The notes below the pieces were generated by a model that worked only from the letters and a program-made list of their open reading frames with translations, made no database searches and was not told the DNA's origin. Positions 9,296 through 48,062 of a stretch of DNA of 64,000 nt are shown here, in pieces (positions within the stretch are counted from its first letter, which is position 1; each line of letters starts with the position of its first letter). The translations under genes and the position numbers were made by a program. Source of the stretch: Sphingobium ummariense RL-3 (GTDB lineage Bacteria > Pseudomonadota > Alphaproteobacteria > Sphingomonadales > Sphingomonadaceae); NCBI RefSeq assembly GCF_000447205.1, contig NZ_AUWY01000120.1:124001-188000 (forward strand), in the 5' to 3' direction.

Positions 9296-9907
9296 ATGGC
9301 GCGAGTCTCGATCTTTCCCCTGTCCGGGGCGCTGTTGCTGCCGGGCATGGACCTGCCGCTGCACATTTTCGAGCCGCGCTACCGCGCCCTGATCCATGAC
9401 GCGATGGCGCGCGATCGGCGGATCGGCATGATCCAGCCGCGCGGGGGTGGGCTGACGCCAGCGCTCTACGACATGGGGTGCCTGGGGCATATCGGCCATA
9501 TCGAGGCGTTGGACGACGGGCGGTTCAACATCGTCCTGCGCGGGCTGGCGCGCTTCCGCCTGGTGCGGGAGCTGGACGTCGCAACCGCCTTCCGCCAGAT
9601 CGAGGCGGATGTCGAGGCGGCGCCCGACCCCGACGAGGAGATCCTTTCCGCTGTCGAGCGCGCGGCGCTGGAGCAGGAAGCGCGGCGCTTTGCCGACATG
9701 CTGGGCTATGTGGTCGACTGGACGGCGGTGTCGCGGCTGGACGATGCCTCGCTGGTGAACGGCATCGCGCAGATCGCGCCCTTCGATCCCGCCGCCAAGC
9801 AGACGCTGCTGGAGGCGGACACGCTGCCGGAGCGATCGGAGCGGATCATCCAGCTGATGCAGTTCGCCGGCCGGGCGCAGCGGGATGGCGGGGCGACGCT
9901 GCAATGA
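9296..9907 (+). CDS. LON peptidase substrate-binding domain protein
   Basis: A 203-residue protein consisting of just the Lon N-terminal (LAN/ASCH-like) substrate-binding domain. It starts [29 protein letters not shown] and contains GCLGHI and [17 protein letters not shown]. It has no AAA+ or protease module, so it cannot degrade proteins itself and may be an adaptor or a separate enzyme. ATG at 9296 follows the thioredoxin-TPR gene after ten bases, and its stop overlaps the Trm112 start (ATGA). The order trx-TPR, LON domain, Trm112 is common in alphaproteobacteria as I recall. Confidence 0.9.
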
Positions 9908-10077
9908 AGGCGGTCGACGATCCCTGGCTGATGGCGAAGCTGGTGTGCCCGGTGACGCGGACACCCCTGCGGTATGACGCGGCGGCGCAGGAATTGATAT
10001 CGGAGGCGGCAGGGCTGGCCTATCCGGTGCGGGACGGGACGCCGGTGCTGCTGGTGCGGGAAGCGCGGGCGTTGTGA
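9904..10077 (+). CDS. Trm112 family protein
   Basis: A 57-residue protein of Trm112/YcaR type. The visible pattern is [23 protein letters not shown], then [13 protein letters not shown]. Trm112 proteins in eukaryotes and archaea activate methyltransferases that modify tRNA, rRNA and release factors; the bacterial role is less clear. Only one cysteine is visible (LVCPVT), so the zinc site of the eukaryotic form is absent, as in many bacterial copies. Its ATG overlaps the stop of the LON-domain gene. Confidence 0.88.
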
Positions 10078-10094
10078 GGCGAGGGGCGAAATGC

Positions 10095-10164
10095 CCACCC
10101 CGCTGCGGCTAGCTTCGCCTTCGGCTCAGCAAGGCTCGCTGCCCCTCCCGCAAGCGGGAGGGGG
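10095..10164. repeat. Dispersed intergenic repeat with CCCCTCCCGC/GCGGGAGGGG hairpin
   Basis: The gap between convergent genes holds a Gly/Cys-like GC-rich segment ending in a 10-base perfect inverted repeat: 10142-10151 pairs with 10154-10163 around AA. I recognise this kind of element as a dispersed intergenic repeat in sphingomonads, but copy number cannot be checked here. It could double as a bidirectional terminator for the Trm112 and RidA genes. Confidence 0.5.
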
Positions 10165-10178
10165 GAAATTCGGGTCGT

Positions 10179-10607
10179 TCACTTGAACGCGGCGATGCAT
10201 TCCACTTCGAGCGGGGCGCCCATGGCGAGGCCATCGGCGCCGAAGGCGCTGCGGGCGGGCAGGCGCTTGCCGTCGAAATAGGGGACATAGACCGCATTGA
10301 AGCGGGGCCAGTCGGTCATGTCGTCCAGCATCACCGTGCATTTGACGACGTTGCCGAAGTCGAGGCCGTTGTCCTTCAGGATCTTGCCGATCGAATCCAT
10401 CGAGGCGCGGACGGCGGCGTCGAAGCCTTCCTTGTGCGGGTCCATGCCCTGCGGCACCTGGCCGATCTGGCCCGACATGTAGAGCATGTCGCCCACGCGC
10501 ACGGAGGGGGAGAAGGGCAGCTTCGCGGGCATCGCCTGCTGTGCGTGGGCCGGCGTGGTGGCGAGGCCGAGCAGCAGGGCGGCGGCAGCGATCGGGGTCT
10601 TCTTCAT
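10179..10607 (-). CDS. Exported RidA family protein (second copy)
   Basis: A 142-residue RidA/YjgF-type protein with a clear Sec signal peptide (MKKTPIAAAALLLGLATTPAHAQQ). RidA proteins hydrolyse reactive enamine/imine products of PLP enzymes or flavin amine oxidases to ketone plus ammonia. The fold markers are visible (VRVGDMLYMSGQIGQVPQG, NVVKCTVMLDDM, LEVECIAAF), and the catalytic arginine is present in PARSAFG. It is the last gene of the seven-gene minus-strand cluster, 22 bases after a Tat-exported class V PLP enzyme. ATG at 10607 is chosen because it starts the signal peptide. Confidence 0.9.
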   Translation of the reverse strand: MKKTPIAAAALLLGLATTPAHAQQAMPAKLPFSPSVRVGDMLYMSGQIGQVPQGMDPHKEGFDAAVRASMDSIGKILKDNGLDFGNVVKCTVMLDDMTDWPRFNAVYVPYFDGKRLPARSAFGADGLAMGAPLEVECIAAFK

Positions 10608-10629
10608 CGGATTGTCTCTCCTTGGTGGG

Positions 10630-11886
10630 TCAGGCGCGCGGCAGCGCGGCGAGCAGGCGGTCCACATCCTTCGCATCGTTGAAGACGGAGGGCGAGATGC
10701 GGAAATGATGGTCGTGCAGCGCGATCCGGACCTGCGCTTTCGCCAGCGGTTCGGCAAGGCGCTGCTGCGCGCTGGGCAGGACGCAGCTGAGGATCGGCGC
10801 GCCGCTGTCCGATGGGGTGACGATGGCGTAGCCCTTTGCCGCCAGTCCTTCGCGGAACTGGCCGATCAACGTCTGGGCATGGGCCTGGATCGCGGCCGGA
10901 CCGATCCGTTCGATATAGCCGAGCGAATGGTCGAGCTGGGCGATAACCGATTGCGCATAGGTGCCCGTCGCGAAATGACCGATGGCGCCGGGACGGCTGC
11001 TGTAGCTGACGGGACCGGGGCCGGGCGGATCGAGCGGATAGACATGGGTTTCGGGCGGCGACAGGCCGATGCCGGGCGGCGCGCCGGGCGCGGCGAAGCC
11101 ATAATAGCCATATTCGGTGCGCGGCAGCCGGTCCGCCACGTCGCGGCGGACATAGAGAAAGCCGAGGCCGAAATCCCCCATCAGCCATTTGTAGCTGGCG
11201 CCGGCAGCGAAATCGACGCCGCTGCCATGCAGGTCCACCGGCATCGCACCCGCGGCGTGGATGATGTCGGCATAGACCAGCGCGCCGGCCTTATGCGCGA
11301 GATCACACACCGCCTTCAGGTCGTGGCGGAAGCCGTTATAGGTAGAGACCAGCGACAGGCAGACGAGCTTCGTGCCGGGCACGATCGCTTTGGCCATGTC
11401 CTCCATCGCGATGCGGTTGTCGCGCGCCTGGACCCAGGCGACATCGACGCCCTGCTTCGCCATTTCCATGTACATGGGGAAGGCGGCATAGAAATGGAGC
11501 GTGTCGGTGACGATCCGGCCGCCCGCGTGGGGAAAGCCCATGACGCGCAGCACGGCCTGTTCGCCCATGGTGGTGCTCTGAGTCCAGGTGATCTCGTCCG
11601 GGTCGGCATTTACCAGCCGGGCGAAGCGGGCGATGACGGCGGTGCGGTCGACCGGTGGGCGCGCGGCGGCCACGGGATCGAGCGTGCGGCCGGCGAGATA
11701 GGCATCGACGGCGGCGCGGGCGCCCAGGCTGACCGGATGGGTGGCGGCGTTGTCGAAATAGGCCACCGGCGAGGCGGCGAAGCTGGCCTTGTCGGGAAGG
11801 AGGCCGGCGGGCGTCGCGCGCGCCGCCTGTGCCGCGAGCGGAACGGCCAGCGCCGCGCCCAGCGCTTCGCGGCGGCTGAGCGTCAT
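10630..11886 (-). CDS. Tat-exported class V aminotransferase-fold PLP enzyme
   Basis: A 418-residue PLP enzyme of the class V aminotransferase/cysteine-desulfurase fold. It opens with a Tat-type signal (MTLSRREALGAALAVPLAAQ). The fold begins at VAYFDNAATHPVSLGARAAV; the cofactor aspartate lies in YADIIHAAG (near 207), and the Schiff-base lysine is probably Lys233 in GASYKWLMGDFG. The reaction is unknown: relatives include isopenicillin-N-epimerase-like proteins, desulfurases, lyases and epimerases. It overlaps the preceding HisC-like gene by four bases (ATGA), so both exported PLP enzymes are made together. Export via Tat fits an enzyme that folds around PLP before leaving the cytoplasm. Confidence 0.88.
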   Translation of the reverse strand: MTLSRREALGAALAVPLAAQAARATPAGLLPDKASFAASPVAYFDNAATHPVSLGARAAVDAYLAGRTLDPVAAARPPVDRTAVIARFARLVNADPDEITWTQSTTMGEQAVLRVMGFPHAGGRIVTDTLHFYAAFPMYMEMAKQGVDVAWVQARDNRIAMEDMAKAIVPGTKLVCLSLVSTYNGFRHDLKAVCDLAHKAGALVYADIIHAAGAMPVDLHGSGVDFAAGASYKWLMGDFGLGFLYVRRDVADRLPRTEYGYYGFAAPGAPPGIGLSPPETHVYPLDPPGPGPVSYSSRPGAIGHFATGTYAQSVIAQLDHSLGYIERIGPAAIQAHAQTLIGQFREGLAAKGYAIVTPSDSGAPILSCVLPSAQQRLAEPLAKAQVRIALHDHHFRISPSVFNDAKDVDRLLAALPRA

Positions 11887-13025
11887 GCCAGGACCTTGAG
11901 GAAGGCGGTCTTGAAAGCCTGCATTTCCTGCGGCGTGCCGAAGGAGACGCGGACCCAGTCCTCCATATGCTTGCGCGGGCCGCCGATGAAGACGCCTTCC
12001 TTCGCCAGCGCGGCGGTGACGTCTGCGCCCGGGCGGCCGACATGGATCATCGCGAAGCTCGCCTGCGAGGGAAGGTAGCGCATCCCCTTCGCATCCAGCC
12101 AGGCGAAGAGGTCGTCGCGCACTGCCCTGTTATAGGCCTTGCGCTGGGGGACGAGATCGCTGTCGAGCAGGCTTGCTTCGGCCGCGACGACGGCGGGCAT
12201 CGGCGTGATGTTGACGCCATAGTCGGCCATGCCGTCGAGCAGATCCTTGCGCGCGGCGATCAACCCGCAGCGCAGGCCGGCAAGGCCGTAGATCTTCGAG
12301 AAGGTGCGCGCGACGAGCACGTCCGCGCCCTTCGCCACGAGGTCGAGGCAGCTCTGCGCATCGCTGAACTGGATATAGGCCTCGTCGATCAGCAGCACCG
12401 ATCCGGCCGGCTTGTGGGCGAGCAGCCATTCGATGTCGGCGCGGGAGGTGACGAGGCCGGTCGGGTTGTTGGGGTTGCAGAGATAATAAACGCCCGCGTT
12501 CGGCGCGGCGGCGAGCAGCTTGCGCACGTCGACCGCATAGTCGCCGCCGAGCGGTAGGGTGACGGCGCGAGTCACGCACTGGTCGGACCTGCCGATGAAG
12601 CCGCTGTCGAAGGTGGGTTCGAACCAGGCGATCGGGCGGTCCTTCGACGAATAGGCGAGCGCGACCGAGCGCAGCGGCATGTAGGAGCCGGGATGGACCT
12701 GCACCTGGTCGGGCGAAAGGCCATTCTGCCGCGCGAACAGGCTTTCGAGTTTGGTGGCGAACGCCATCCCGTAGCGGCCGGAGAGCTTTTCGAGGCCAGC
12801 CAGCGCCTGCCGCGCGGCCGGGCAGGGGCCGAGCGGGTTCTCGTTGGAATTGATGTAGACGGCGTCGGTCAGGGTGGCGACCATGCCGGCGGGATCGTCC
12901 GGCAGGGCGACCTTGCGCCCTCGCTGCGCGACGGCGGGGGCCGCGCCCGCGAGTGCGGAGGCGGCGAGGGCGCCGCGCATCAGCATGCGGCGGGAGAGGA
13001 TGGCGCTTTCCGGCACTTCGGTCAT
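11883..13025 (-). CDS. Tat-exported aminotransferase (histidinol-phosphate aminotransferase-like)
   Basis: A 380-residue fold-type I aminotransferase of the HisC-like branch. It has a Tat-type N-terminus (SRRMLMRG at 11-18, then a hydrophobic stretch to about 33). Visible landmarks are NSNENPLGPCP (substrate end), CNPNNPTG (183-190), DEAY (214-217, the cofactor aspartate) and the PLP lysine Lys244 in TFSKIYGLAGLRCG. Cytoplasmic HisC enzymes make histidine, but a Tat-exported copy beside an amine oxidase and RidA points to amino-acid or amine catabolism in the periplasm. It lies 25 bases after the cytochrome c gene. Confidence 0.88.
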   Translation of the reverse strand: MTEVPESAILSRRMLMRGALAASALAGAAPAVAQRGRKVALPDDPAGMVATLTDAVYINSNENPLGPCPAARQALAGLEKLSGRYGMAFATKLESLFARQNGLSPDQVQVHPGSYMPLRSVALAYSSKDRPIAWFEPTFDSGFIGRSDQCVTRAVTLPLGGDYAVDVRKLLAAAPNAGVYYLCNPNNPTGLVTSRADIEWLLAHKPAGSVLLIDEAYIQFSDAQSCLDLVAKGADVLVARTFSKIYGLAGLRCGLIAARKDLLDGMADYGVNITPMPAVVAAEASLLDSDLVPQRKAYNRAVRDDLFAWLDAKGMRYLPSQASFAMIHVGRPGADVTAALAKEGVFIGGPRKHMEDWVRVSFGTPQEMQAFKTAFLKVLA

Positions 13026-13050
13026 GGCACGCTCCTGCTGGGACTGGGTG

Positions 13051-13437
13051 TCAGGGCTTCCCGAGGCGCTTCACGTCGGCCTCGGTCACCGGCTGGGGAT
13101 AGGCGTTGCCGAAATTGGTGCGGACATAGGTGATGACGGCGGCCATTTGCGCCGGGGTCAGGATGTCGTCCATCGGCGGCATCGCACCCTTGCCCTTGGC
13201 AAGCACGCCGATCGGATAGGCGGGATCGGCCAGATTGGCGTCCTTGGCAAGCGCGGGAATGGCGCCTGTGCCCCGGGCGTCGGGCAGGTGGCATGCGGCG
13301 CAGATCTCCTTGAAGATCTTTCCGCCTTCCGCCGTGTTGTTCTTCGCCTGCATGCTGCCCGGCATGTCCTGCGCCGAGGCGATGAACGGCAAGGCCAGCA
13401 TCGCGAGCGGCGGCAGGAGCAAGAGGCCACGCCTCAT
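13051..13437 (-). CDS. Small periplasmic class I cytochrome c
   Basis: A 128-residue c-type cytochrome with a Sec signal (MRRGLLLLPPLAMLALPFIASAQ). The haem site is CAACH at 46-50, and the axial methionine is probably in KGAMPPM near 86. The TYVRTNFGN segment is typical of short class I cytochromes that accept electrons from periplasmic dehydrogenases. Its start codon overlaps the stop of the flavin amine oxidase gene (ATGA), which makes it the obvious electron acceptor for that enzyme. ATG at 13437 is chosen as the start of the signal peptide; no other start in frame gives one. Confidence 0.9.
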   Translation of the reverse strand: MRRGLLLLPPLAMLALPFIASAQDMPGSMQAKNNTAEGGKIFKEICAACHLPDARGTGAIPALAKDANLADPAYPIGVLAKGKGAMPPMDDILTPAQMAAVITYVRTNFGNAYPQPVTEADVKRLGKP

Positions 13438-15020
13438 GCCGCGCTCGCGCGCTTGTGGATCTGGGCGATGGCGTCGAGGCCCGAGAGCATCGACCCTTCC
13501 ATCCAACCGCCATAATAGCTGGCATGTTCGCCCGCCAGCACGACCCGGCCGTCGAGGGCGACGAGGTTCTGGTAATGCGCCGCGCGGTTCTCCTCGCTCC
13601 AGCGCGAGGTGCAGCCCAGGATCCACGGCACGCGGGTCCAGGGGACCGACACGCCGCTCAGATATTCCTTGCGATATTGCGGGTGGAAGACCTCGCCCTG
13701 CTTCAGCGCCGCCTCGATCCGCTCGGCCGGGGTCATGCCGGCAAGCTGGAAGGCGCCCGCCCCGCTGGTGAAGGCGCCCAGCAGCACGGCGGGGCCGTTG
13801 GAGAAGAAGCGATCATTGGGATAGGACAGCTGGCCGATCGCCTGATCGGTGAAGCTGTGGCCGCCATAGATGGCATCGTCCTCCTCCCAGAAGCGGCGCT
13901 TGAATTCCAGGCCCATCTTGATGTGACCGGCATAGGGCACCGCCTTCATCGCGGCGGCGAGCTTCGGCCCGACCTGCATCTCCACCTGGCGGATGATCGA
14001 CAGCGGAATGGTGCACACACACCAGTCGGCGCTGACCGTGTTCACCTTGCCGGAGGGGACGTCCTGATAGCTGACGGTCACGCCCTTGCCGTTCTGGGCG
14101 ACCTTCGTGACCTTTGCATTATAGGTGATGGACTTGCCGACATGCTTGGCGAAGGCCTTGCCGATCATGTCCATGCCGCCCACCGGCTGGAACATCGTCG
14201 TCTGCATCACATAGTTGAAATAGAAGGACATCGCCGTCCACACTTGCGGCGAGAACACGTCCGACAGCTTGGCGATCTGCGAGGGCGTGGGCGCGCCGTT
14301 GATGCCGCCGCCGGGCGGCCGGTCATAGCCGCGCTGCGAGGACACGTGGACGCTGCTGGTATAGGCCATGTTCGCGTCGAGCAGGCCCCAGTTCCGCAAC
14401 GCCTCCAGCAGCTTTTCCTTGTCCTCCGCCGTCACGCTCTGGTCCAGCGCACCGGCGCCCAGCGCCTTGGCCAGAAGTTCCGACGTGTGGCCCTTGAAGT
14501 CGACGGCGACTTCCCGATAGCGCATCGGCTTGCCGCCGAAGGCGTCCGACGAATGGATGAAGCCATTGTGATTGAGCTGGATGAACGGTTCCAGCGCGAC
14601 GCCGAATTGGCGGCAATAATGCAGCAGGCACTTATGATGGTGCGGGATGCGCCAGGGACCGGGATTGACATAGTTGCCGGGCGCGAATGTCACCTTCTGC
14701 ACCGTGCCGTCGCTTTCGGTGAAGCTGTCGCCGCCGCGCAACGAATAATTGCGCCCGCCTGGCCGGTCCTGGAATTCCAGGATCTTCACGCTGTAGCCGG
14801 CCTTCTCCAGCTCATAGGCAGCGACCATCCCAGCGAGGCCCGCGCCCAGCACTACGACCGAGGCACCCGGTTTTGCGCCCGACAGGACGGGCGGACCGGT
14901 GAACTGGGTTTCGGCGGCATGGCCGAGCGCGGTCATCGCCTGGTACATGGCGGCGGCGCCCCCCATCCTGCCGATGAGGGTCAGCAGCTGGCGGCGGCTG
15001 GGTTGCGTGACGTCGTTCAT
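13434..15020 (-). CDS. Tat-exported flavin monoamine oxidase family enzyme
   Basis: A 528-residue FAD enzyme of the monoamine oxidase/L-amino-acid oxidase family. The Tat signal is SRRQLLTLIGRMGG (8-21). The FAD dinucleotide fold is VVVLGAGLAGMVAAYELEKAG (about 55-75), with the ribose-binding Glu and RPGGR at 82-90. The C-terminal FAD-binding segment is near RVVLAGEHASYYGGWMEGSMLSGLDA. The enzyme should oxidise an amine or amino acid to an imine. Its coupling with a cytochrome c gene suggests it is a dehydrogenase passing electrons to cytochrome c rather than to oxygen, as known for NicA2 with CycN in Pseudomonas nicotine degradation. The substrate is unknown. Confidence 0.92.
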   Translation of the reverse strand: MNDVTQPSRRQLLTLIGRMGGAAAMYQAMTALGHAAETQFTGPPVLSGAKPGASVVVLGAGLAGMVAAYELEKAGYSVKILEFQDRPGGRNYSLRGGDSFTESDGTVQKVTFAPGNYVNPGPWRIPHHHKCLLHYCRQFGVALEPFIQLNHNGFIHSSDAFGGKPMRYREVAVDFKGHTSELLAKALGAGALDQSVTAEDKEKLLEALRNWGLLDANMAYTSSVHVSSQRGYDRPPGGGINGAPTPSQIAKLSDVFSPQVWTAMSFYFNYVMQTTMFQPVGGMDMIGKAFAKHVGKSITYNAKVTKVAQNGKGVTVSYQDVPSGKVNTVSADWCVCTIPLSIIRQVEMQVGPKLAAAMKAVPYAGHIKMGLEFKRRFWEEDDAIYGGHSFTDQAIGQLSYPNDRFFSNGPAVLLGAFTSGAGAFQLAGMTPAERIEAALKQGEVFHPQYRKEYLSGVSVPWTRVPWILGCTSRWSEENRAAHYQNLVALDGRVVLAGEHASYYGGWMEGSMLSGLDAIAQIHKRASAA

Positions 15021-15099
15021 GGTCCACCCTGTTGCAGGACGGGCGAAGACTGCGCGGCAGGGGTTTCGCCCCCGATCCCCTGCCGCGGGGCGCCGGTTC

Positions 15100-15588
15100 C
15101 TACGGCGCCTTGGCTGCGATCGCCTCGATCTCCACCAGTTGCTGCGGACGCGCGAGCGCCGCGATCTGGAAGGCGGAGCGGGTGGGCAGATTGGGCTGAT
15201 CGGCGGTGCCGAAAAATTTCTTGTAGGCGCGGGTCAGCCCGTCCCGGTCCATCTTGCCACCGTTTTTGGGATCACCGACCAGGAAAACGGTGAGCTTGAT
15301 GACGTCGCCCATGCCGAGGCCCATCTCGGCGAGCTGTGCCTTCATCTTGGTGAGGATGCTGAAGGTCTGTGTCTCCGTATCGCCATAGGCGTCGGGGCTT
15401 TCGGTGTCGGCCGGACTGACGGGCGAGGCGGTGGCGCCCGACAGATAGTAGAAGGTGCTGCCCGGCGGCACGATGGCCGCGCTGGCGATCATCGCGCCAG
15501 GCGCCTGCCTGTGCTCGACGCCTGCCGCGTGGGCGGGGGTGGCAGACAACGCCAGCAGGACGGACAGGGTGGCAAGTGCGTGCTTCAT
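15100..15588 (-). CDS. Exported RidA family protein (first copy)
   Basis: A 162-residue RidA-type protein with a Sec signal (MKHALATLSVLLALSATPAHAAG). The RidA core is seen in STFYYLSGATASPVSP, MGDVIKLTVFLVGDP and the C-terminal LVEIEAIAAKAP, with the catalytic Arg in LPTRSAFQIAAL. The insert around SPADTESPDAYGDTETQTFSIL is typical of a RidA subgroup with a longer first half. It lies between the TonB receptor and the flavin oxidase and probably hydrolyses the oxidase's imine product. The two RidA copies of the cluster differ clearly, so they are not a recent duplication. Confidence 0.9.
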   Translation of the reverse strand: MKHALATLSVLLALSATPAHAAGVEHRQAPGAMIASAAIVPPGSTFYYLSGATASPVSPADTESPDAYGDTETQTFSILTKMKAQLAEMGLGMGDVIKLTVFLVGDPKNGGKMDRDGLTRAYKKFFGTADQPNLPTRSAFQIAALARPQQLVEIEAIAAKAP

Positions 15589-15656
15589 ATCGCGATCCTT
15601 ATCCGCTGAAGGAAAAAGGGCCGGCCCATGCGGACCGGCCCCCCTTCGTGACCTCG

Positions 15657-18272
15657 TCAGAACTTGAAGTCGATGCGAGCGTAATAGTAGCCGCCCGCCG
15701 TGCTGTAGGGGCCATGACCATAGGGGCTGTCATAGGCACCAGAGCCGTTGATATAGGGCGACTGGCCGACGGGCACGGTCACGCCCGTCAGCAGCTTGGG
15801 CACCTCCGGCTTCTTGTTGAACAGGTTGTTCGCGCCCACCGAGAAGGTGACGGCGTCGGTGAAGTCGTAGCTTGCCTCGAGGTCGGTGATCGGGGCTGCC
15901 TTGACCACGCCGTTGAAGTAGAGCTGGTTCGCTCCGCCGGCGGCGTCCGGAATGAGGAAGCCGCCCTGCGGAACGACGATGTTCCCGCTGCTGTCCCGCG
16001 CGGTGAAGCCCGGCCGAACCAGCATGCTGGTCTTGCCATAATAGGTTTCGCGCAGGTTCAGCGAGAACGGGCCGCTCTTGAACAGGGCGCTCGCGACGAT
16101 TTTGTAGTCCGGCGTCGAGTCCTCGATATTGCTTTCCGACGCCGCGTTGAACAGCGGATAGCCGACCTGATTGTTGGTGATCTTGGTCTTGTTGTAGTTC
16201 GCGTTGAGCGACAGGTTGAGCGTGCCGAAATCGAGCGCGACTGGGTAGCTGGCGGAGAAGTCGATGCCCCACGTCCGGGTGTCGATGCCGTTGGTGAAGC
16301 TCTGCACGCCCACGGTCTGCAGTGCGGTGTCGAGCACGATGCCCGCCGCCGCCAGTGCATCGAAAATCGCCGCCGCGCCGGGCTGGATCACGCCACCCTG
16401 GACCGCATTGCGCGATGCGGTCGCGGTGATGCGGTCCTTGATCTTGATGAGATAGGCATCGACCGTAATCGCGAGCTTCGGCACCGGCCGCAGCACGATG
16501 CCGCCCGAGAAGTTCTTCGACTTTTCCGGACCCAGGGGACCGAAGCCGAGCAGCTGCGCGGCCGGCGTGCCGGCGGGTAGCTGGGCAACGGCGCTGGTCG
16601 GGCCAACGTTGATCGTCGAATATTTCTGTTCGGCAAGCGTCGGGGCGCGGAAGCCGGTGCTGGCCGTGCCGCGGATCGCAAAGGCATCGCTGAAGTCGTA
16701 GCGTGTCGTGATCTTGCCGATCAGCGTGTCGCCGAAGTCCGAATAGTCCTCGTAGCGGCCCGCGATGTCAACGCTCCAGCCATCGACCGGCTCCGCGATG
16801 AAGTTCACGTAGCCAGCCTTGGAATTGCGGGTGTAGCGTCCGGCGTCGGTGGACTTGTAGCCGGGGAATGATTGCACGCCCGTCTTGTAGGTCGAGTAGA
16901 AATCACCCTCGACGATCTCGTACATGTCCTTGCGATATTCGCCGCCGAAGGCGAAGGTTAGAGGCCCGGCCATGCCGACGTCGAATTCCCTGCGGATGTC
17001 GGCGTTGATCGTCGTCTGGCTCAAGCGGAAGCCGCCGTCATAAGCCTTATCGGGCGTGTTGGGTACGCCGATGCCGGCGCGCGCTGCTGCATAGCTTTCC
17101 TGCCAGACTTCGCGATGGGCTGACCTTTCGGTCCAGATCTCGTTCTTCTGGTAGCCATAGGTGCCGCTGAGGTCGTAGTTCCAGTCGCTCCCGAACTCGC
17201 CTTTTGCGCCGATGGTGAAGCTGTATTCATCTTCGATCACATGCTGGAGCGGCACCATGCCCCACACGCCGGTATCGCTGTAACAGATCGAGGGATCGTA
17301 GGCCGCAGGAGTTACGCTGCCGCCGAGGTTGCCGGTTTCGTAGCAGATGCGCTTGGGATGGCGGTAGCCCTGCTTGGCCCAGCCTTCGCGGCGGGCATAA
17401 TCGCCGAAGCTGTACAGTTCCACGCCACCGAAATCATAGCCCATATTGTAGAAGGCGACGTTGAGCCTCGATTTGGGCTGGCCGCCATTGATATTGGCCA
17501 GCGCATCGCCGGTAAGGTTGGACCATTGCGCCGGCGCGTTGGGCTGAAGCGTACCGTCGGGCTTCGTGACCTGGACCTGGCCCTTGCCTAGCGTGGTGTA
17601 GTCCTGGCGCCGATGGAACAGCGTCAGGTCGAAATAGCCATCCTCGCCCAGCTTGAAGCCGACATTGCCCGAAGCCGAGAAGAGTTCGCCCTGGCTGTTA
17701 TAATATTGCCCTCCGGTGACCTTGAACGTGCCGCCGTCGGTCTGATCCTTCAGGATGAAGTTGATCACGCCGGCGATGGCGTCGGTGCCGTAGACGGCCG
17801 CAGCACCTTCCTGGAAAACCTCGACGCGCGAGATGGCGTCCGGCGGAATCAGGTCGATGCTGGGGGCGGCGGAACCGGAGAAGGCGCCGAGCACCTGGAG
17901 GATGCCGTTGCCGTGACGGCGCTTGCCATTGACCAGGACCAGCGTGTGGTTCGGGCTGAGGCCACGCAGGCGGGCCGACAGCGAGAAACTGGACATGTCG
18001 GTGCCCTGCGTCTGCGCCGTGAAGCTCGGTACTATCTGGGTCAGCACCTGGTTGAGGTTCGGCTGGCCGACGTGGCTGATGGCTTCTTCGCTCAGCACCT
18101 GGATCGGCGCGGCGCTTTCGGCGGCTGACATGCCCACGGCACGGGTGCCGGTGACGATGATGGCGGTGCCGTCATCGGCCTGCGGCGCCTGTTGCGGCTC
18201 TTGTGCGGCTGCACAGGCCGACCAAGACGATGCGAGGATGAGTGATAGGCGAAGTGCGGAAAATCTCGTCAT
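15657..18272 (-). CDS. TonB-dependent outer-membrane receptor
   Basis: An 871-residue receptor. It has a signal peptide (to about AAAQ at residue 24), a plug domain (about 45-165, with AIIVTGTRAVG, LVLVNGKRRHGNGI and AVYGTDAIAGVINFILK) and a 22-strand barrel ending in the aromatic YYYARIDFKF. It should bring a small, non-siderophore nutrient across the outer membrane using TonB energy. It is the first gene of the cluster with the exported RidA, amine oxidase, cytochrome c and PLP enzymes, so the nutrient is probably an amine, amino acid or peptide. ATG at 18272 has an AGGGGG ribosome-binding site. Confidence 0.92.
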   Translation of the reverse strand: MTRFSALRLSLILASSWSACAAAQEPQQAPQADDGTAIIVTGTRAVGMSAAESAAPIQVLSEEAISHVGQPNLNQVLTQIVPSFTAQTQGTDMSSFSLSARLRGLSPNHTLVLVNGKRRHGNGILQVLGAFSGSAAPSIDLIPPDAISRVEVFQEGAAAVYGTDAIAGVINFILKDQTDGGTFKVTGGQYYNSQGELFSASGNVGFKLGEDGYFDLTLFHRRQDYTTLGKGQVQVTKPDGTLQPNAPAQWSNLTGDALANINGGQPKSRLNVAFYNMGYDFGGVELYSFGDYARREGWAKQGYRHPKRICYETGNLGGSVTPAAYDPSICYSDTGVWGMVPLQHVIEDEYSFTIGAKGEFGSDWNYDLSGTYGYQKNEIWTERSAHREVWQESYAAARAGIGVPNTPDKAYDGGFRLSQTTINADIRREFDVGMAGPLTFAFGGEYRKDMYEIVEGDFYSTYKTGVQSFPGYKSTDAGRYTRNSKAGYVNFIAEPVDGWSVDIAGRYEDYSDFGDTLIGKITTRYDFSDAFAIRGTASTGFRAPTLAEQKYSTINVGPTSAVAQLPAGTPAAQLLGFGPLGPEKSKNFSGGIVLRPVPKLAITVDAYLIKIKDRITATASRNAVQGGVIQPGAAAIFDALAAAGIVLDTALQTVGVQSFTNGIDTRTWGIDFSASYPVALDFGTLNLSLNANYNKTKITNNQVGYPLFNAASESNIEDSTPDYKIVASALFKSGPFSLNLRETYYGKTSMLVRPGFTARDSSGNIVVPQGGFLIPDAAGGANQLYFNGVVKAAPITDLEASYDFTDAVTFSVGANNLFNKKPEVPKLLTGVTVPVGQSPYINGSGAYDSPYGHGPYSTAGGYYYARIDFKF

Positions 18273-18498
18273 TCATGCCCCCTGTTTTGCATTTTTTGAC
18301 AAGGGGGCTAACGAGGTAAGTGCGGAAATCCGCTATTGCGGCGCACAAATTTTACAGAAAAGTGAATTGTGTCCGGTGACTTCCGGAAGGTTTGGCGAAT
18401 ACGCATCACGATGATTGTCAGGCCGTGATCGCATTGCTTTCATTATCTTTTGTGATGTGGCATGGCGGTTTTTCTACTGGCGCTCGTCTTTATCCCAT

Positions 18499-19125
18499 TC
18501 AGCTCTTCACGGCGGCCTCGAGCAGGGCCTGGCCTTCCTTGCTGCTCCAGTCCATCGCGCCGACGATCCGAAGCATCTCCTTGCCCTGTGCGTCGTAGAG
18601 GACGGTCGTAGGCAGCTGCGCCGCGCCATAATGCTGGGCGAGACGGTTTTCCGGATCCACCCAGCCCTTCAGATGGGCGAGCTTCCTCTGCTTGAAGAAG
18701 GGGGCGATGACTTTCTGACCCTGGATATCCTGGGAGACGGTCAGCACGGCGAGGCCGCGCGCGCTGTATTCGGCGGCGACCTTGTCGAGCTCCGGCATCT
18801 CGGCGACGCAGGGCGCGCACCAGGTGGCCCAGAGATTGACGAGCACCGGCTTGCCCGCGAAGTCCTTCAGGCTCGCGTCGCCGCCGTCGGGATCCTGGAA
18901 GGCGATGTCCGGGGCGGGCGTGCCGGCCTTCGACCGGTCGATCGAATAGGCGAAGGCGCCGCCGCCGTTCTGTCCGCCGCTTTCGCTGGCGCCCTGCACC
19001 TCCTCGCTGCCCGGCGGAACCTGAGCCGCGGCGTTCGCCGCCGCTTGCTCCTTGGGCGGCGATTGCCTATCGCACGCGGCGAGGCCCGCCAGCAGGAGCA
19101 GTGTCATTACGGATCGCGAGGACAT
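18499..19125 (-). CDS. TlpA-like thioredoxin-fold lipoprotein
   Basis: A 208-residue periplasmic thiol-disulfide protein. A lipoprotein signal ends at Cys18 ([11 protein letters not shown]), a low-complexity Ala/Gly/Glu linker follows (about 20-65), and then a TlpA/ResA-type thioredoxin domain with the redox motif WATWCAPC and the cis-proline segment [17 protein letters not shown]. Such proteins reduce disulfides of periplasmic targets, for example in cytochrome c assembly. The ATG at 19125 is favoured because it gives a positively charged start to the signal; ATG at 19107 is the alternative. The start codon overlaps that of argH on the other strand, so no separate promoter region exists between them. 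Confidence 0.88.
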
Positions 19126-20521
19126 GAGCAAGGTTTCCAGCTCCAACAGCATGTGGGGCGGCCGTTTCGCGGGCGGCCCGGCTTCGGTCATGCGGGAGAT
19201 AAATGCCTCGATCCCCTTCGACAAGCGATTGTGGAAGCAGGACATCGCCGGGTCCAAGGCGCATGTCGCGATGCTGGCGAAACAGGGCATCGTCGAGGGC
19301 GAGGACGCGCAGGCGATCACCGAGGGACTGAACCGCATCGCAGCCGAATATGAGGCCGACGGCGTGCCGGTGAACATGGATCTGGAAGACATCCACATGG
19401 TCACGGAATCGCGCCTGGCCGAACTGATCGGGCCGGCAGCCGGCCGGCTGCACACGGCGCGGTCGCGCAACGATCAGGTGGCGACCGATTTCCGCCTGTG
19501 GGTGCGCGATGCCATCGACGAGGTGCAAGCGGGGCTGGAAGCGCTGCAGGCGGCGCTGCTGGCGCGGGCGGAGGAACATGTCGGGGCGGTGATGCCGGGT
19601 TTCACCCATCTGCAATCCGCGCAGCCGGTGACGCTGGGGCATCACCTGATGGCCTATTTCGAGATGATCCGGCGCGATCGCAGCCGCTTCGCTGACGCAC
19701 GGGCGCGGATGAACGAATGTCCGCTCGGCGCGGCGGCGCTGGCGGGGACGGGGTTTCCCATCGACCGGCACGCGACGGCGGCGGCGCTGGGCTTCGACCG
19801 GCCGACCGACAACAGCCTGGACAGCGTGTCGGACCGCGACTTCGCGCTCGACTATCTGATGGCGGCCACCCAGTGCAGCCTGCACCTGTCGCGCCTGGCC
19901 GAGGAGTTCATCATCTGGGCGAGCCAACCCTTCGGCTTCGTCAAGCTGCCCGACGCCTATTCGACCGGCAGCTCGATCATGCCGCAGAAGCGCAATCCCG
20001 ACGCGGCCGAGCTGGTGCGGGGCCATGCCGGGCGCATCATGGGCTGCATGACCGCGCTGTGCGTGACGATGAAGGGGCTGCCACTGGCCTATTCCAAGGA
20101 CATGCAGGACGATAAGCCGCCGGTGTTCGAGGCGCATGACCTGCTGGGCCTTTCCATCGCGGCGATGACCGGCATGATCGGCACCGTGACGTTCCGCACC
20201 GACCGGATGCGCGCTCTGGCGGAGAGCGGCTTCGCGACCGCCACCGACCTGGCGGACTGGCTGGTGCGCGAGGCGAACGTGCCGTTCCGCGAGGCGCATC
20301 ACATCACCGGGCGCGCCGTGGCGGCGGCGGAGGCGGCGGGAACGCCGCTCGCCGAACTGTCGATCGAGACGTTGAAGGCCATTGACCCGCGCATCGACGA
20401 TCGCATCTATGCCGTGCTGACGGTCGATGCGTCGGTCGCCAGCCGCAGGAGCCATGGCGGCACCGCGCCGGACCAGGTTCGCGCCCGCATCGCGCAGGCG
20501 CGGGAGGAGATGAGCCGATGA
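19124..20521 (+). CDS. argH: Argininosuccinate lyase
   Basis: A 465-residue enzyme that splits argininosuccinate into arginine and fumarate. The signature [12 protein letters not shown] is present, and the N-terminus has the usual [11 protein letters not shown] and the helix pair [15 protein letters not shown] at 19124 has a GAGG ribosome-binding site that lies inside the divergent tlpA-like gene; ATG at 19151 (MWGGRF) is a weaker alternative. Its stop overlaps the start of the following small lipoprotein gene (ATGA), and lysA follows, so arginine and lysine genes are in one unit. Confidence 0.96.
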
Positions 20522-44370: not shown

Positions 44371-45846
44371 TCAGTCCGCCCCGCCCGTCGGATAATAATG
44401 GCCCACAGGATATTCGCCATAGGCGGTCATGACGTCGCCCGCCATTTCGAAGCGGAACTGCGGCGCACGGATTTCCATCGCTGCCGCTTCGGGCCAGGGC
44501 GCGCAGACGCTGCCGGCCGGTGCGGCGCGGGCGAGCAGCACAGCCATACCGTCGTCCGCATCGATCCGGTCGGCAGGAGCGGAGGTGCGATATTCCAGCG
44601 CCAGCCCGCTGGCGGGCGCTGCCTGAAGGAAGCGGTCGGCGAGGAGCATCGCCGTCCCAAGGTCGTCGAGGGCTATCAGGAAAACGCCGCTTGCCGACTG
44701 CTGCACTGGCGGAGTGGAGTCGGTAACGGCAGGAAATGGTGCAACCGATGCGAGTATGGCCCGACTGACTGCGGTCGGGAGCGGTCGCCCGGTCCGCGGA
44801 GCCGACTGGTCCAGGGTTACGGTGTGAACCGGCATGCCCCGGTCCCGCCAGCGGCTTTCCGACGGGCTGGGAGCATCGGACCCGCGGCCCACATGCAGGG
44901 CCATGGCCTGCGTCTCCAGGGCCTTGGCGCGGCGCAGGGCCAGGCCCATGGCGATCTCCGCCCCTTTGGCCACTGCGGCATCCGACAGGTCGGTCTCGCT
45001 ATGTGGGGCCTCGACGCTCGCGGCCAGTTCCACCAGGCGGTTGAAGCGTTGCATCCATTGACCGCCGAACGCTCCGACCGAAAGCGAACGGAAAACGTCG
45101 GGAGTTGTCGGCAGGACGACGTGCAGTTCCACCCCACGTTCGACCGCCAGTTCCGCGATCAGGATGTCCGCGCCGGCCGCAAGGGCGCCGAAGACCGCCC
45201 CCGGCCGGATCGCGTCCAGCGCATCGCCGATCTGTCGCCGCGCCTGCGCCTCGTCCTCCGGCAGGCCGATGATGCCACTGAAATACAGGCTGGGGGGCGG
45301 GCGCAGATGGTCGAAAAGGGTCGGCGGCAGCCCGGTCCGCGTCAGGATCTGGCGGAGCTGACGCAGCGTCGCCGCATGATCCTCCCATGCCTCGGGCGCC
45401 ACGGCCATCGCCCGCTCCAGCGCGGCGCGGCTCGCTGCCTCGTCACCCAGCAGCAGATGCGCCTCGGCGGCGGTGGCGGCGAGCCAGTAGCGCGTTTCGG
45501 CTTCATGATCGCCGCTGTCGAGCAGCGTCAACACCCGGCGCGCCAGCAGACGGGCTTGGTCGGGCCGATCGTTCAGAAAGGCGAGGGTCGCCGCGTTGAT
45601 GAGCGGATAGGTGGCACGCCGCCCTCTCGCAGCCTCGAGATAGGCGCCTTCCGCTTCCTCCAGCAGTATACTGCGTTCGGCGGGCGCGCCGCTTAGCGCG
45701 CGATCCTTCAGCAGCCTGCCCTTGAGGCTCAGCGCTTCGGGATCGTCGGACAGCAGTAGCCCCGACCCGCTGAACATGCGCCAGGCCCGGTTGGTATCCC
45801 CGGCACGCGCGATCCCGCGAATCTGCGCCAAGCCCGAAACGATCAT
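44371..45846 (-). CDS. TPR protein with SLOG-like nucleotide-sensing domain
   Basis: A 491-residue protein. Residues about 1-180 are helical repeats of the TRAFs-binding/TPR type. Residues about 186-275 look like a SLOG Rossmannoid domain: SLYFSGIIGLPEDE, then AAGADILIAELAVERGVELHVVLP and LSVGAFGGQWMQRFNRLVELA. This follows the pattern seen beside cyclases and TIR proteins, in which the glycine loop and the GAD...E...G segment bind a nucleotide. The last 200 residues are unassigned (beta-rich, ending FEMAGDVMTAYGEYPVGHYYP). It is the third gene of an operon with a TIR protein, so it may sense the nucleotide signal the TIR protein makes. Confidence 0.65.
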   Translation of the reverse strand: MIVSGLAQIRGIARAGDTNRAWRMFSGSGLLLSDDPEALSLKGRLLKDRALSGAPAERSILLEEAEGAYLEAARGRRATYPLINAATLAFLNDRPDQARLLARRVLTLLDSGDHEAETRYWLAATAAEAHLLLGDEAASRAALERAMAVAPEAWEDHAATLRQLRQILTRTGLPPTLFDHLRPPPSLYFSGIIGLPEDEAQARRQIGDALDAIRPGAVFGALAAGADILIAELAVERGVELHVVLPTTPDVFRSLSVGAFGGQWMQRFNRLVELAASVEAPHSETDLSDAAVAKGAEIAMGLALRRAKALETQAMALHVGRGSDAPSPSESRWRDRGMPVHTVTLDQSAPRTGRPLPTAVSRAILASVAPFPAVTDSTPPVQQSASGVFLIALDDLGTAMLLADRFLQAAPASGLALEYRTSAPADRIDADDGMAVLLARAAPAGSVCAPWPEAAAMEIRAPQFRFEMAGDVMTAYGEYPVGHYYPTGGAD

Positions 45847-45861
45847 GCCGCCATTGCTCGC

Positions 45862-46341
45862 TCAGTCGTCCTTGGGCGGCGGATTCTTGATGTCCGGGTC
45901 GATCGACAGAGCGGTCCACTGCGGCTCGCCGGAGGGCGAAAGCTGCAGCAGGTCGACATTGACGTTGAACGCGTGCCGCGTGCCATATTTGCCGCCCTTG
46001 TTGAAGCGTGCGCGGAAGCGGGCGATCTTGTAGCGATCCAGCTTCTCGTCATAGCCATCATATTCCAGCCCGCCGTAAAAGGAAGCGAGTGGCTGCTTGG
46101 TCGTGATGCCATCGATGTCCTTGGAGAAATAGAGCTGGTCGCCCTTCAGAACGATTTCCACGATGGAATCCTTCTTGATGGCGATGTAGTCGCGGCCGGG
46201 CACGTCGGGCTGTTCGAAGCGCAGCACGATCCGGTCGTTCTGAGCCTTCAGGGTGACGTGGAAGCGGATCGGCTTGTCATCCGCGACGCCCAGCGGGAAC
46301 TGCGGGGCCAGCCCGCAATGCTGATAGTTCAGTGTCGACAT
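45862..46341 (-). CDS. Small conserved protein between TIR and SLOG genes (function unknown)
   Basis: A 159-residue soluble, beta-rich protein starting STLNYQHCGLAPQFPLGVADDKPIRFHVTLKAQNDRIVLRFEQPD. I recall relatives being found next to TIR and TRAFs-binding proteins, and some databases naming them nucleotide synthetase, but I cannot verify this and see no catalytic motif. ATG at 46341 is preferred because an AAGGGAG ribosome-binding site lies five bases before it; a GTG at 46347 is the alternative. It lies two bases after the TIR gene and 15 bases before the SLOG-like gene, so the three are one operon. Confidence 0.7.
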   Translation of the reverse strand: MSTLNYQHCGLAPQFPLGVADDKPIRFHVTLKAQNDRIVLRFEQPDVPGRDYIAIKKDSIVEIVLKGDQLYFSKDIDGITTKQPLASFYGGLEYDGYDEKLDRYKIARFRARFNKGGKYGTRHAFNVNVDLLQLSPSGEPQWTALSIDPDIKNPPPKDD

Positions 46342-46343
46342 GG

Positions 46344-47939
46344 TCACTCCCTTCGATTAGCCAGCGGCCTGGTCAGCTTGCGCTGCCAGACACGCCAGTC
46401 GTTGTTGTCCGGATCGGATGCGACCAGCCGGTCCACATCCTCCCGTGCCTCCGCCCGCAGCATCTCCGCCCGCTGCGTCTCGCCCAGCGCGTGAAGAAGC
46501 TTCGACATCGAATAGCGGGCAAGCATCCAGTCCTGCAGATAGCCCGCATTCTTCGGGTCGTCCTTGAGCAGCGACTGGAGGATTTCCCCCTGCCGCTTGC
46601 GTTGCTGAAGAGCGGCGGCATCTTCGCCCTGCAGCCGCAGCGCGTCGGCCATCCACGCGTGGCGGTTGGCGAGGTCGGCGGCGATGTCAGGATCGCCGGG
46701 GGCCATGCGATGGACGCGCTCCATGGTCGCCAGCGCGGCGCTGCAGTCCTTCAGCGCCTGCGCGCCCGCATTCCGGGTCACCGCGATGGTGCAGATATTG
46801 CCCTGCGCATAGCCCAGTTCCCGCCAATAGGCGCGGTTGCCCGGCTCCTGCCTGACGAGTTGCTGCGCGAGCGACTGATAGGAACGGAAACGCGGCAGCG
46901 CGGCGTCATACCGGTTCCGCATGAAGTCGACATAGCCCAGCCAGAACTCGCTTTGCGCATGGGCGAACAGCCGCTTGGGATCGTCGGGGTCGGCGGCCCG
47001 CAGCGCAGCCGTCACGCGATAGGCCTCCGCGAACTGCGCCAGGGCGCCGGCCGCGTCGCCGCGCTTGAAATCGTCCGCACCCATTGCCTGCAGGATGCGT
47101 GCGCGCCGCTCCAGCGAATCGGCGGGCAGGGCGGACAGGTCCGGCTGCTCCGCATAATAGCCCAGCGCCCGCTTGTTCACGGTCTGAAGAACGTCGAGCC
47201 GGCCCACCCCCTCCAGTTTCTCCCGCAGGTCGGTGAGCATGAATTCGATCAGTCCTTCGGCCTGCTGGCGCTGCTTTTCCGCCTCGCTCCGCGCACGCGC
47301 CACGAAGACCAGCATCAGCGCCATGAATAGGGCAAGAAGGACCAGCAAAAACGTGACGCCGATCACGCGCCGCAACTGTCTTTGCGCATCCCGCTGGATG
47401 ATCTGGTCCAGCGCGACGCCGGTCAGCCCGGCGACGATCTTCAGCCGCGCGAGCTTCGCGCCGTCCCGGTCGGGATGGAAATCGGCAGCGATCGGCTCCT
47501 GCTCGACGCCGTCGGGGTCGCGCGCCAGCAATGCCGGGGGGAAGCTATCGGCAGGCTCGCCCTGGATCAGCGCGGCGATGACGGGACGATCGGGATGAAG
47601 CTCCCGGAACAGCGCGATTTCGGCATCGACCCATCGCGATGCCTTGGCCGCGGGCGAGCAGAGTACGAGCAGCGCGTCGGACTGCGACAGCGCCAGGCGG
47701 ACTTCCCGGTCAAGGCTGGAGGCGGCGGGAAGCTCGGCCCGGTCGCGAAAGATCGGCGCGAGCCGCCGCGGTACCGGGCCACGCGGAGAAGGTGAACCGG
47801 CAAGGCGGGAAGGCAGGCGATAGGTTTCGAGCCAGCGATGGAGGCGGGCGGCGAAACGCTCATCGGCATGGCTGTAGCTGAGGAAGGCCCGGTACCGGCG
47901 ACGGTCCGCGGCGTCATCGCCGATGCTGCTCCCCGTCAT
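46344..47939 (-). CDS. Membrane TIR-domain TPR protein
   Basis: A 531-residue protein. The TIR domain (about 16-150) has box 1 YRAFLSYSHADERF and the segment LVLCSPAAKASRWVDAEI, with Glu107 in the place of the catalytic glutamate of TIR NAD hydrolases. One membrane helix (about 192-214, IGVTFLLVLLALFMALMLVFV) follows, then a coiled coil and TPR-like repeats (about 270-531). The TIR part is predicted on the cytoplasmic side. TIR enzymes can cleave NAD or make cyclic ADP-ribose signals. ATG at 47939 is used; GTG at 47948 is the alternative. It is the first gene of the operon. Confidence 0.85.
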   Translation of the reverse strand: MTGSSIGDDAADRRRYRAFLSYSHADERFAARLHRWLETYRLPSRLAGSPSPRGPVPRRLAPIFRDRAELPAASSLDREVRLALSQSDALLVLCSPAAKASRWVDAEIALFRELHPDRPVIAALIQGEPADSFPPALLARDPDGVEQEPIAADFHPDRDGAKLARLKIVAGLTGVALDQIIQRDAQRQLRRVIGVTFLLVLLALFMALMLVFVARARSEAEKQRQQAEGLIEFMLTDLREKLEGVGRLDVLQTVNKRALGYYAEQPDLSALPADSLERRARILQAMGADDFKRGDAAGALAQFAEAYRVTAALRAADPDDPKRLFAHAQSEFWLGYVDFMRNRYDAALPRFRSYQSLAQQLVRQEPGNRAYWRELGYAQGNICTIAVTRNAGAQALKDCSAALATMERVHRMAPGDPDIAADLANRHAWMADALRLQGEDAAALQQRKRQGEILQSLLKDDPKNAGYLQDWMLARYSMSKLLHALGETQRAEMLRAEAREDVDRLVASDPDNNDWRVWQRKLTRPLANRRE

Positions 47940-48062
47940 GCCGGCCACACCGTCACTGGATCATGCCCCCAATTCCCCGCTGCGATGGATGCACCTTTCG
48001 ACGCGCCAAGGCGAGGGGAATCATGGAAGCGGGCGCGGAAAGGGTGGCGGAACCGCCTCTGG

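Follow-up and report, generated by a model that had tools for sequence, protein, structure and literature searches.

Gene content and export signals of the locus

The 64,000-nucleotide stretch of Sphingobium ummariense RL-3 analysed here (hereafter the window; positions 124,001 to 188,000 of contig NZ_AUWY01000120.1, assembly GCF_000447205.1) belongs to a genome of 4.75 Mb in 139 contigs and carries, on the minus strand, a run of seven genes that extends from the start of a TonB-dependent receptor gene at 18272 to the end of a Rid protein gene at 10179. The receptor (15657..18272, 871 aa, Pfam plug and barrel) is followed by an exported Rid protein, RidA1 (15100..15588, 162 aa; PF01042, 50.3 bits), a flavin L-amino-acid-oxidase-like enzyme with a twin-arginine translocation (Tat)-type signal, here abbreviated FAO (13434..15020, 528 aa; PF01593, 190.9 bits), a small exported mono-haem cytochrome c with one CXXCH motif (13051..13437, 128 aa; PF13442, 46 bits), a Tat-type HisC/PtaA-like aminotransferase (HisC-like; 11883..13025, 380 aa; Pfam Aminotran_1_2 and NCBIfam PRK09105, 425.7 bits), a Tat-type class V pyridoxal phosphate (PLP) enzyme (class V; 10630..11886, 418 aa; PF00266, 115.5 bits) and a second exported Rid protein of the archetypal RidA type, RidA2 (10179..10607, 142 aa; PF01042, 89.9 bits). 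An earlier interpretation made from the bare letters (the sequence-only reading) had named this run and its families; all seven genes are present, and Pfam placed each of them above cut-off in the family proposed (TonB barrel/plug, Ribonuc_L-PSP twice, Amino_oxidase, Cytochrome_CBB3, Aminotran_1_2 and Aminotran_5). From the receptor to RidA2 the junctions measure 68, 79, -4, 25, -4 and 22 bases, so that the four-base overlaps, which that reading had counted as "several", exist at exactly two of the six junctions (FAO/cytochrome c at 13434-13437 and HisC-like/class V at 11883-11886). An Rfam scan of window positions 9800-19600 returned no RNA family.

PLP enzymes and Rid proteins have been described chiefly from the cytoplasm, and Rid proteins there guard against enamine damage. 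The proposal that every enzyme of the run is exported was borne out at the level of sequence-pattern tests, with motifs conserved across relatives; the tests asked for a twin-arginine (RR) motif, or for a hydrophobic leader with a permissive AxA-like pattern behind it, and were used in place of SignalP. The N-terminal RR motif was found in all 34 FAO, all 26 HisC-like and all 30 class V sequences, and the hydrophobic leader with its AxA-like pattern in all RidA1 (19/19), cytochrome c (20/20) and RidA2 (47/47) sequences. Three of the 20 cytochromes matched the RR pattern as well.

Distribution and modularity of the operon

The complete seven-gene order recurs in other genomes, with 11 loci among the 94 genomes of the genus, the window included. 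Its components differ widely in frequency: of the 94 genomes, 67 had a receptor match (E<=1e-150), 30 a class V orthologue at >=72% identity, 26 a HisC-like orthologue at >=77% and 19 FAO at >=80%. For a closer comparison and a receptor tree, 53 receptor loci were retained (identity >=60%, coverage >=90%); left out were G254 (55%), G005, in which the receptor is split into two matches and accompanied by HisC-like, class V and RidA2, and the receptor loci that were not fetched. In the fetched loci covering that side the receptor adjoins argH/lysA, and the opposite flank usually, though not always, holds a thioredoxin-TPR gene. In the window, the receptor is preceded at a distance of about 230 bases by a TlpA/AhpC-TSA-type thioredoxin gene, likewise on the minus strand (18502-19383), and a weak match to it occupies the same place in several receptor loci without the enzymes.

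All seven genes were present in 11 of the 53 receptor loci; one locus lacked only HisC-like and another only class V. Receptor, HisC-like, class V and RidA2 occurred together in 12 loci, receptor, class V and RidA2 in four, receptor, HisC-like and RidA2 in one, and RidA2 accompanied the receptor in the absence of any PLP gene in 13. The remaining ten had none of the six other genes, one of them (L076) ending at a contig edge inside a class V gene. The single fixed seven-gene pathway of the sequence-only reading therefore gives way to a modular locus, in which the receptor may stand with RidA2 alone (13/53) or with neither Rid nor enzymes (nine loci). When nine receptor loci without the enzyme genes were searched for their remnants, weak matches alone came up, namely to part of HisC-like in one locus (L208, E 0.035) and to 33 cytochrome c residues in four (E 0.23-0.44).

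Within this variation, the arrangement of what is present is more regular than chance would give. Gene order was constant in the receptor loci inspected, HisC-like and class V overlapped by four bases in all 24 loci having both, and the gap from class V to RidA2 measured 15-31 bases in 30 of 30 cases, including a genome with the pair on another contig. RidA1 lay upstream and the cytochrome c gene downstream of FAO at all 19 loci with FAO at >=80% identity, 13 of which are in the receptor locus and six elsewhere in the genome. HisC-like has paralogues elsewhere in the genome. FAO in the receptor locus was always accompanied by a PLP gene (13/13); where FAO was missing, 17 of 40 receptor loci had one (Fisher p 1.9e-4, uncorrected for kinship).

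On the receptor tree, which is a gene tree and not a species tree, the minimum number of state changes was seven for FAO, seven for HisC-like and ten for class V. In the FAO tree the window groups with two other loci inside and six outside the receptor locus, apart from ten other inside loci; this tree and the cytochrome c tree each require at least two changes between the receptor locus and elsewhere, which could correspond, for example, to one entry and one exit or to two entries. The operon contains two units, RidA1-FAO-cytochrome c and class V-RidA2, each of which would be gained or lost independently of the other.

The two enzyme units

The best match of FAO among solved structures was the L-amino acid oxidase 2jae (E 1.8e-87), that of Rhodococcus opacus. 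FAO R124 aligns with R84 of that enzyme, presumably the arginine that binds the substrate carboxylate, and the position was arginine in 67 of 67 homologues. Because FAO is nearest to 2jae and the carboxylate-type arginine is kept throughout, an amino-acid substrate is likely. Both Rid proteins exceed the PF01042 cut-off of 27.3 bits and keep the catalytic Arg column; neither reaches the NCBIfam TIGR00004 cut-off of 106.25 bits (RidA2, 94.0; RidA1, 44.6). The best structural matches of RidA1 were 9bkc (E 1.3e-31) and 9bka (E 4e-28), and its nearest relatives are the Rid3-type proteins PFL_1385 and PSPTO_3006, so that, going by the closest match, it may belong to the Rid3 subfamily. PFL_1385 and PSPTO_3006 hydrolyse iminoarginine and the imines of L-amino acid oxidase (PMC5619798), and imine products of this oxidase are substrates of Rid3 and RidA proteins alike (PMC5619798, PMC4433059).

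Relatives of the flavin unit also occur beyond the genus. Plasmid relatives of FAO at 48-56% identity occur in Rhizobiales, Rhodobacterales and Burkholderiales, and in the seven of 36 matching records that were examined the cytochrome c gene was always directly downstream (7/7), and a RidA gene followed in four. On plasmid pDSHI02 of Dinoroseobacter shibae (L344:1-6033) the FAO-cytochrome c pair directly adjoins the cytochrome c oxidase genes coxB/ctaD, together possibly a complete electron route. At motif level, the window carries the flavoenzyme with adjacent exported cytochrome c that marks the cytochrome c-using FAO dehydrogenases. A Tat signal with an adjacent cytochrome c was a good predictor of such dehydrogenases (PMC12224317), and on this ground FAO would be a dehydrogenase rather than an oxidase.

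Other arrangements of the flavin unit were seen. In four loci from other genomes of the genus (L200, L201, L236 and L239) the unit is expanded, with two FAO genes flanking one cytochrome c gene downstream of a related receptor and one more Rid gene pointing away from that receptor. Tandem arrays of at least three FAO paralogues (32-42% identity) were present in L087, L097 and L098, in one family of the order.

In the second unit, HisC-like scored just below the cut-off of PRK09105 (NF006580; 425.7 against 444 bits) and, at 332.9 bits against 500 for PtaA (NF051461), is not a PtaA equivalog by score; nor is class V, at 22.3 bits against 650, an equivalog of PvdN (NF051467). The structure model of class V (mean pLDDT, the predicted local distance difference test, 89.6) is folded like SufS, C-DES and kynureninase (SufS, Z 41.2; C-DES, Z 39.8; many ties); PvdN is absent from the fold matches listed, which says nothing either way. 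Aligned with SufS 8d8s as a profile of 40 sequences (the window and 39 others), the family keeps the PLP lysine, K233, in 40 of 40, and R396 aligns with the C-terminal Arg of SufS, which we take to have a carboxylate role. Cysteine desulfurases carry their catalytic cysteine in a C-terminal loop. The 13-residue loop bearing that cysteine is absent from the profile and the conserved cysteines of class V sit elsewhere, and on this ground a cysteine desulfurase of the SufS/CsdA/IscS kind was rejected. RidA2 was closest to the RidA structure 5hp7 (E 5.7e-19), with the Arg and Glu columns kept.

From 461 class V relatives the best 80 were kept, among which Sphingobium accounts for 17 of the 19 rows at 72-77% identity; neighbours were studied in 61 loci outside the Sphingobium-type set, ten of them 16 kb or shorter. 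A Rid open reading frame lay in the fetched stretch of 19 of the 61, and of 17 of the 51 longer than 16 kb; for comparison, the 4.75-Mb genome of the window has four Rid genes, two of them in the operon. Seven of the Rid matches near class V fall in open reading frames of about 2.5 kb from Henriciella, Hyphomonas and one alphaproteobacterial bin, and, these loci being related, the seven are not independent. One such frame, in a Hyphomonas bin (L303:3740-6232, minus), encodes an amidohydrolase of 831 aa with a C-terminal Rid domain confirmed by Pfam, and a similar long frame with a Rid match occurs in the six other loci.

Class V was followed by RidA in three of four plasmid records (a Sphingobium megaplasmid and two Variovorax plasmids), as pairs standing alone; on the Novosphingobium PP1Y plasmid, no Rid match lay within 6 kb of the class V relative. 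In Variovorax, SRR stands close to the N-terminus of the class V protein. A lipoprotein-like cysteine follows the leader in this protein and in its Rid, and would tether the two to a membrane.

Clustering of the class V loci brought out recurrent neighbours, and Pfam was run on 20 proteins from the neighbourhoods of five of them (L286, L287, L299, L303 and L316). They comprised seven S10 carboxypeptidases, two M61 peptidases, one S9 peptidase, two amidohydrolases (one Rid-fused) and one each of an ornithine cyclodeaminase/mu-crystallin, an amino-acid permease, an Lrp/AsnC regulator, a class I/II aminotransferase, a Rid protein and an MFS transporter, with two giving no match. Neighbours of this peptidase and amino-acid type favour peptides and amino acids over free amines.

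Proposed function, alternatives and meaning

We interpret the seven genes as a modular operon for the deamination of amino acids in the periplasm, served by one TonB-dependent receptor, a reading to which we assign a probability of roughly one half; its reactions, substrate and electron route are predicted from gene families, gene order and conserved motifs. The receptor would import a ligand of peptide or amino-acid type into the periplasm. There FAO would oxidise an alpha-amino acid to the imino acid, with the cytochrome c of the adjacent gene as electron acceptor, and RidA1 would hydrolyse this product, yielding keto acid and ammonia. The PtaA-like HisC-like enzyme, which travels with the class V-RidA2 unit, would transaminate in the same compartment; class V would act on an alpha-amino acid, probably in an elimination-type reaction whose enamine or imine product RidA2 would hydrolyse. 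Every imine-producing unit would thereby have its own Rid. As to the substrate, left by the sequence-only reading as an amine, an amino acid or a peptide, the likeness to 2jae, R124 and the peptidase neighbours speak for the latter two and leave a generic amine less supported; peptide-derived amino acids, oxidised to keto acids, are the most likely candidates.

Several observations weigh against this interpretation. FAO F417 aligns with Y371 of the 2jae enzyme, presumably a tyrosine that helps to bind the carboxylate, and the homologues are divided at this position (F in 33, Y in 34 of 67). The fold search matched the reaction types open to class V equally well and did not separate them. In 13 of 53 loci RidA2 stands without any PLP gene, so class V is not always its partner. 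One change of place suffices in the RidA1 tree, unlike those of FAO and the cytochrome. The three structural matches of the receptor are siderophore or colicin receptors, poor reaction in solution was seen for some flavoenzyme-cytochrome pairs, those of clade 1 (PMC12224317), and, given the many states of the receptor locus, the enzymes could be other than steps of one pathway.

This last point leads to the alternative that survives best, although we consider it unlikely: that the genes are independent exported amino-acid enzymes, each for a different amino acid, gathered at one expression site and sharing a neighbourhood rather than a pathway. It would account for the many subsets found (receptor alone, or with RidA2, class V-RidA2, HisC-like-class V-RidA2 or all six partners), for at least seven, seven and ten changes of state of FAO, HisC-like and class V on the receptor tree, and for the siting of units elsewhere, but it sits poorly with the constant gene order, the invariable HisC-like/class V overlap (24/24) and the company of a PLP gene wherever FAO is in the receptor locus (13/13).

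By analogy with PvdN and PtaA, which act on the glutamyl group of pyoverdine, the operon might instead tailor or break down an imported peptide siderophore in the periplasm. HisC-like is nearest to the family that includes PtaA, the receptor matches Cir and a siderophore receptor, PtaA has also been reported from species without pyoverdine (PMC6206403), and a Fur box has been reported ahead of a putative nuo-lao operon in Gluconacetobacter diazotrophicus (PMC9368920). However, a scan with the E. coli-type Fur consensus gave matches upstream of the 53 receptor genes no higher than in shuffled sequences (at least 12 of 19 positions in 3/53 upstream regions, against 162/1060 shuffles), class V scores 22.3 bits against the PvdN cut-off of 650, and the class V relatives lie in peptidase clusters; we regard this explanation as improbable. 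Formation of auxin, with FAO turning L-tryptophan into indole-3-pyruvate as proposed for the Gluconacetobacter lao-cccA-ridA unit, in which the same three families form one unit and a Tn5 insertion in lao abolished indole-3-acetic acid production (PMC5053998), appears more improbable still, as Pfam finds no decarboxylase among the seven genes and relatives occur on Rhodobacterales plasmids such as those of Sulfitobacter and Dinoroseobacter.

Elsewhere in the window (44374-47948, minus), a TIR-domain protein (TIR_2, ThsB-like TIR), a predicted nucleotide synthetase of the pNTSase1 type and a TPR-S sensor are encoded side by side; the trio resembles a candidate nucleotide-signalling immune cassette, and PADLOC returned a weak SAVED_TIR match to the TIR gene alone.

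Turning to the precedents for a deamination operon, the sequence-only reading had held that no pathway of this form was described, which is too strong: the flavin unit is known, both as lao-cccA-ridA and among the cytochrome c-using flavin amine dehydrogenases, and exported PLP enzymes have precedents in PvdN and PtaA. In G. diazotrophicus PAL5, an L-amino acid oxidase-family enzyme with a Tat-type signal, a cytochrome c and a RidA share an operon (PMC5053998), and the window likewise has a flavoenzyme of this family with a Tat-type signal and adjacent cytochrome c and Rid genes. The likeness to the Gluconacetobacter lao protein is one of family and gene content, drawn from descriptions; as described, that unit is without a TonB receptor, PLP enzymes or a second Rid, and in the window RidA1 is the first of the three genes. 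NicA2, Pnao and their relatives also combine a Tat signal on the flavoenzyme with an adjacent Sec-exported cytochrome c (PMC12224317). That study began from NicA2, whereas the best solved relative of FAO is the L-amino acid oxidase 2jae; among the 60 FAO matches listed, none is named nicotine oxidoreductase and several are just "amine oxidase".

The Tat-exported PLP enzymes PtaA, a HisC-like periplasmic transaminase, and PvdN, of class V (PMC6206403), resemble the two PLP enzymes of the window in family and export. The differences lie in the scores given above and in context, the operon being without pyoverdine genes and its class V enzyme Rid-paired. PFL_1385 and PSPTO_3006 (PMC5619798) are the closest solved relatives of RidA1, which by that match is a putative imine hydrolase of their subfamily. 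Chlamydomonas LAO1/LAO2 likewise joins a periplasmic L-amino acid oxidase to a RidA partner, but is a eukaryotic system with an H2O2-producing oxidase, and the available text reports no cytochrome c or PLP enzymes (PMC10805672).

The single parts, the flavin unit and exported PLP enzymes are therefore already known. An exported class V-RidA pair, and both units behind one receptor, were not found in the literature searched, which covered few subscription journals. We tentatively suggest, at somewhat less than even odds, that class V-RidA is an undescribed exported two-gene system releasing an enamine or imine, spread from Alpha- to Betaproteobacteria and joined in Sphingobium to the flavin unit behind one receptor, with one Rid guard for each imine-producing enzyme. 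If so, the conserved exported PLP-Rid pair would extend this chemistry, and the demand for a guard that goes with it, to the periplasm, and would point to an ability of bacteria to deaminate amino acids ahead of import, the electrons passing directly to cytochrome c. With 461 relatives the class V family is sizeable and, in three annotated plasmid records, carries only the generic labels "aminotransferase V" or "class V-fold"; an assay could give a name to an uncharacterised family.

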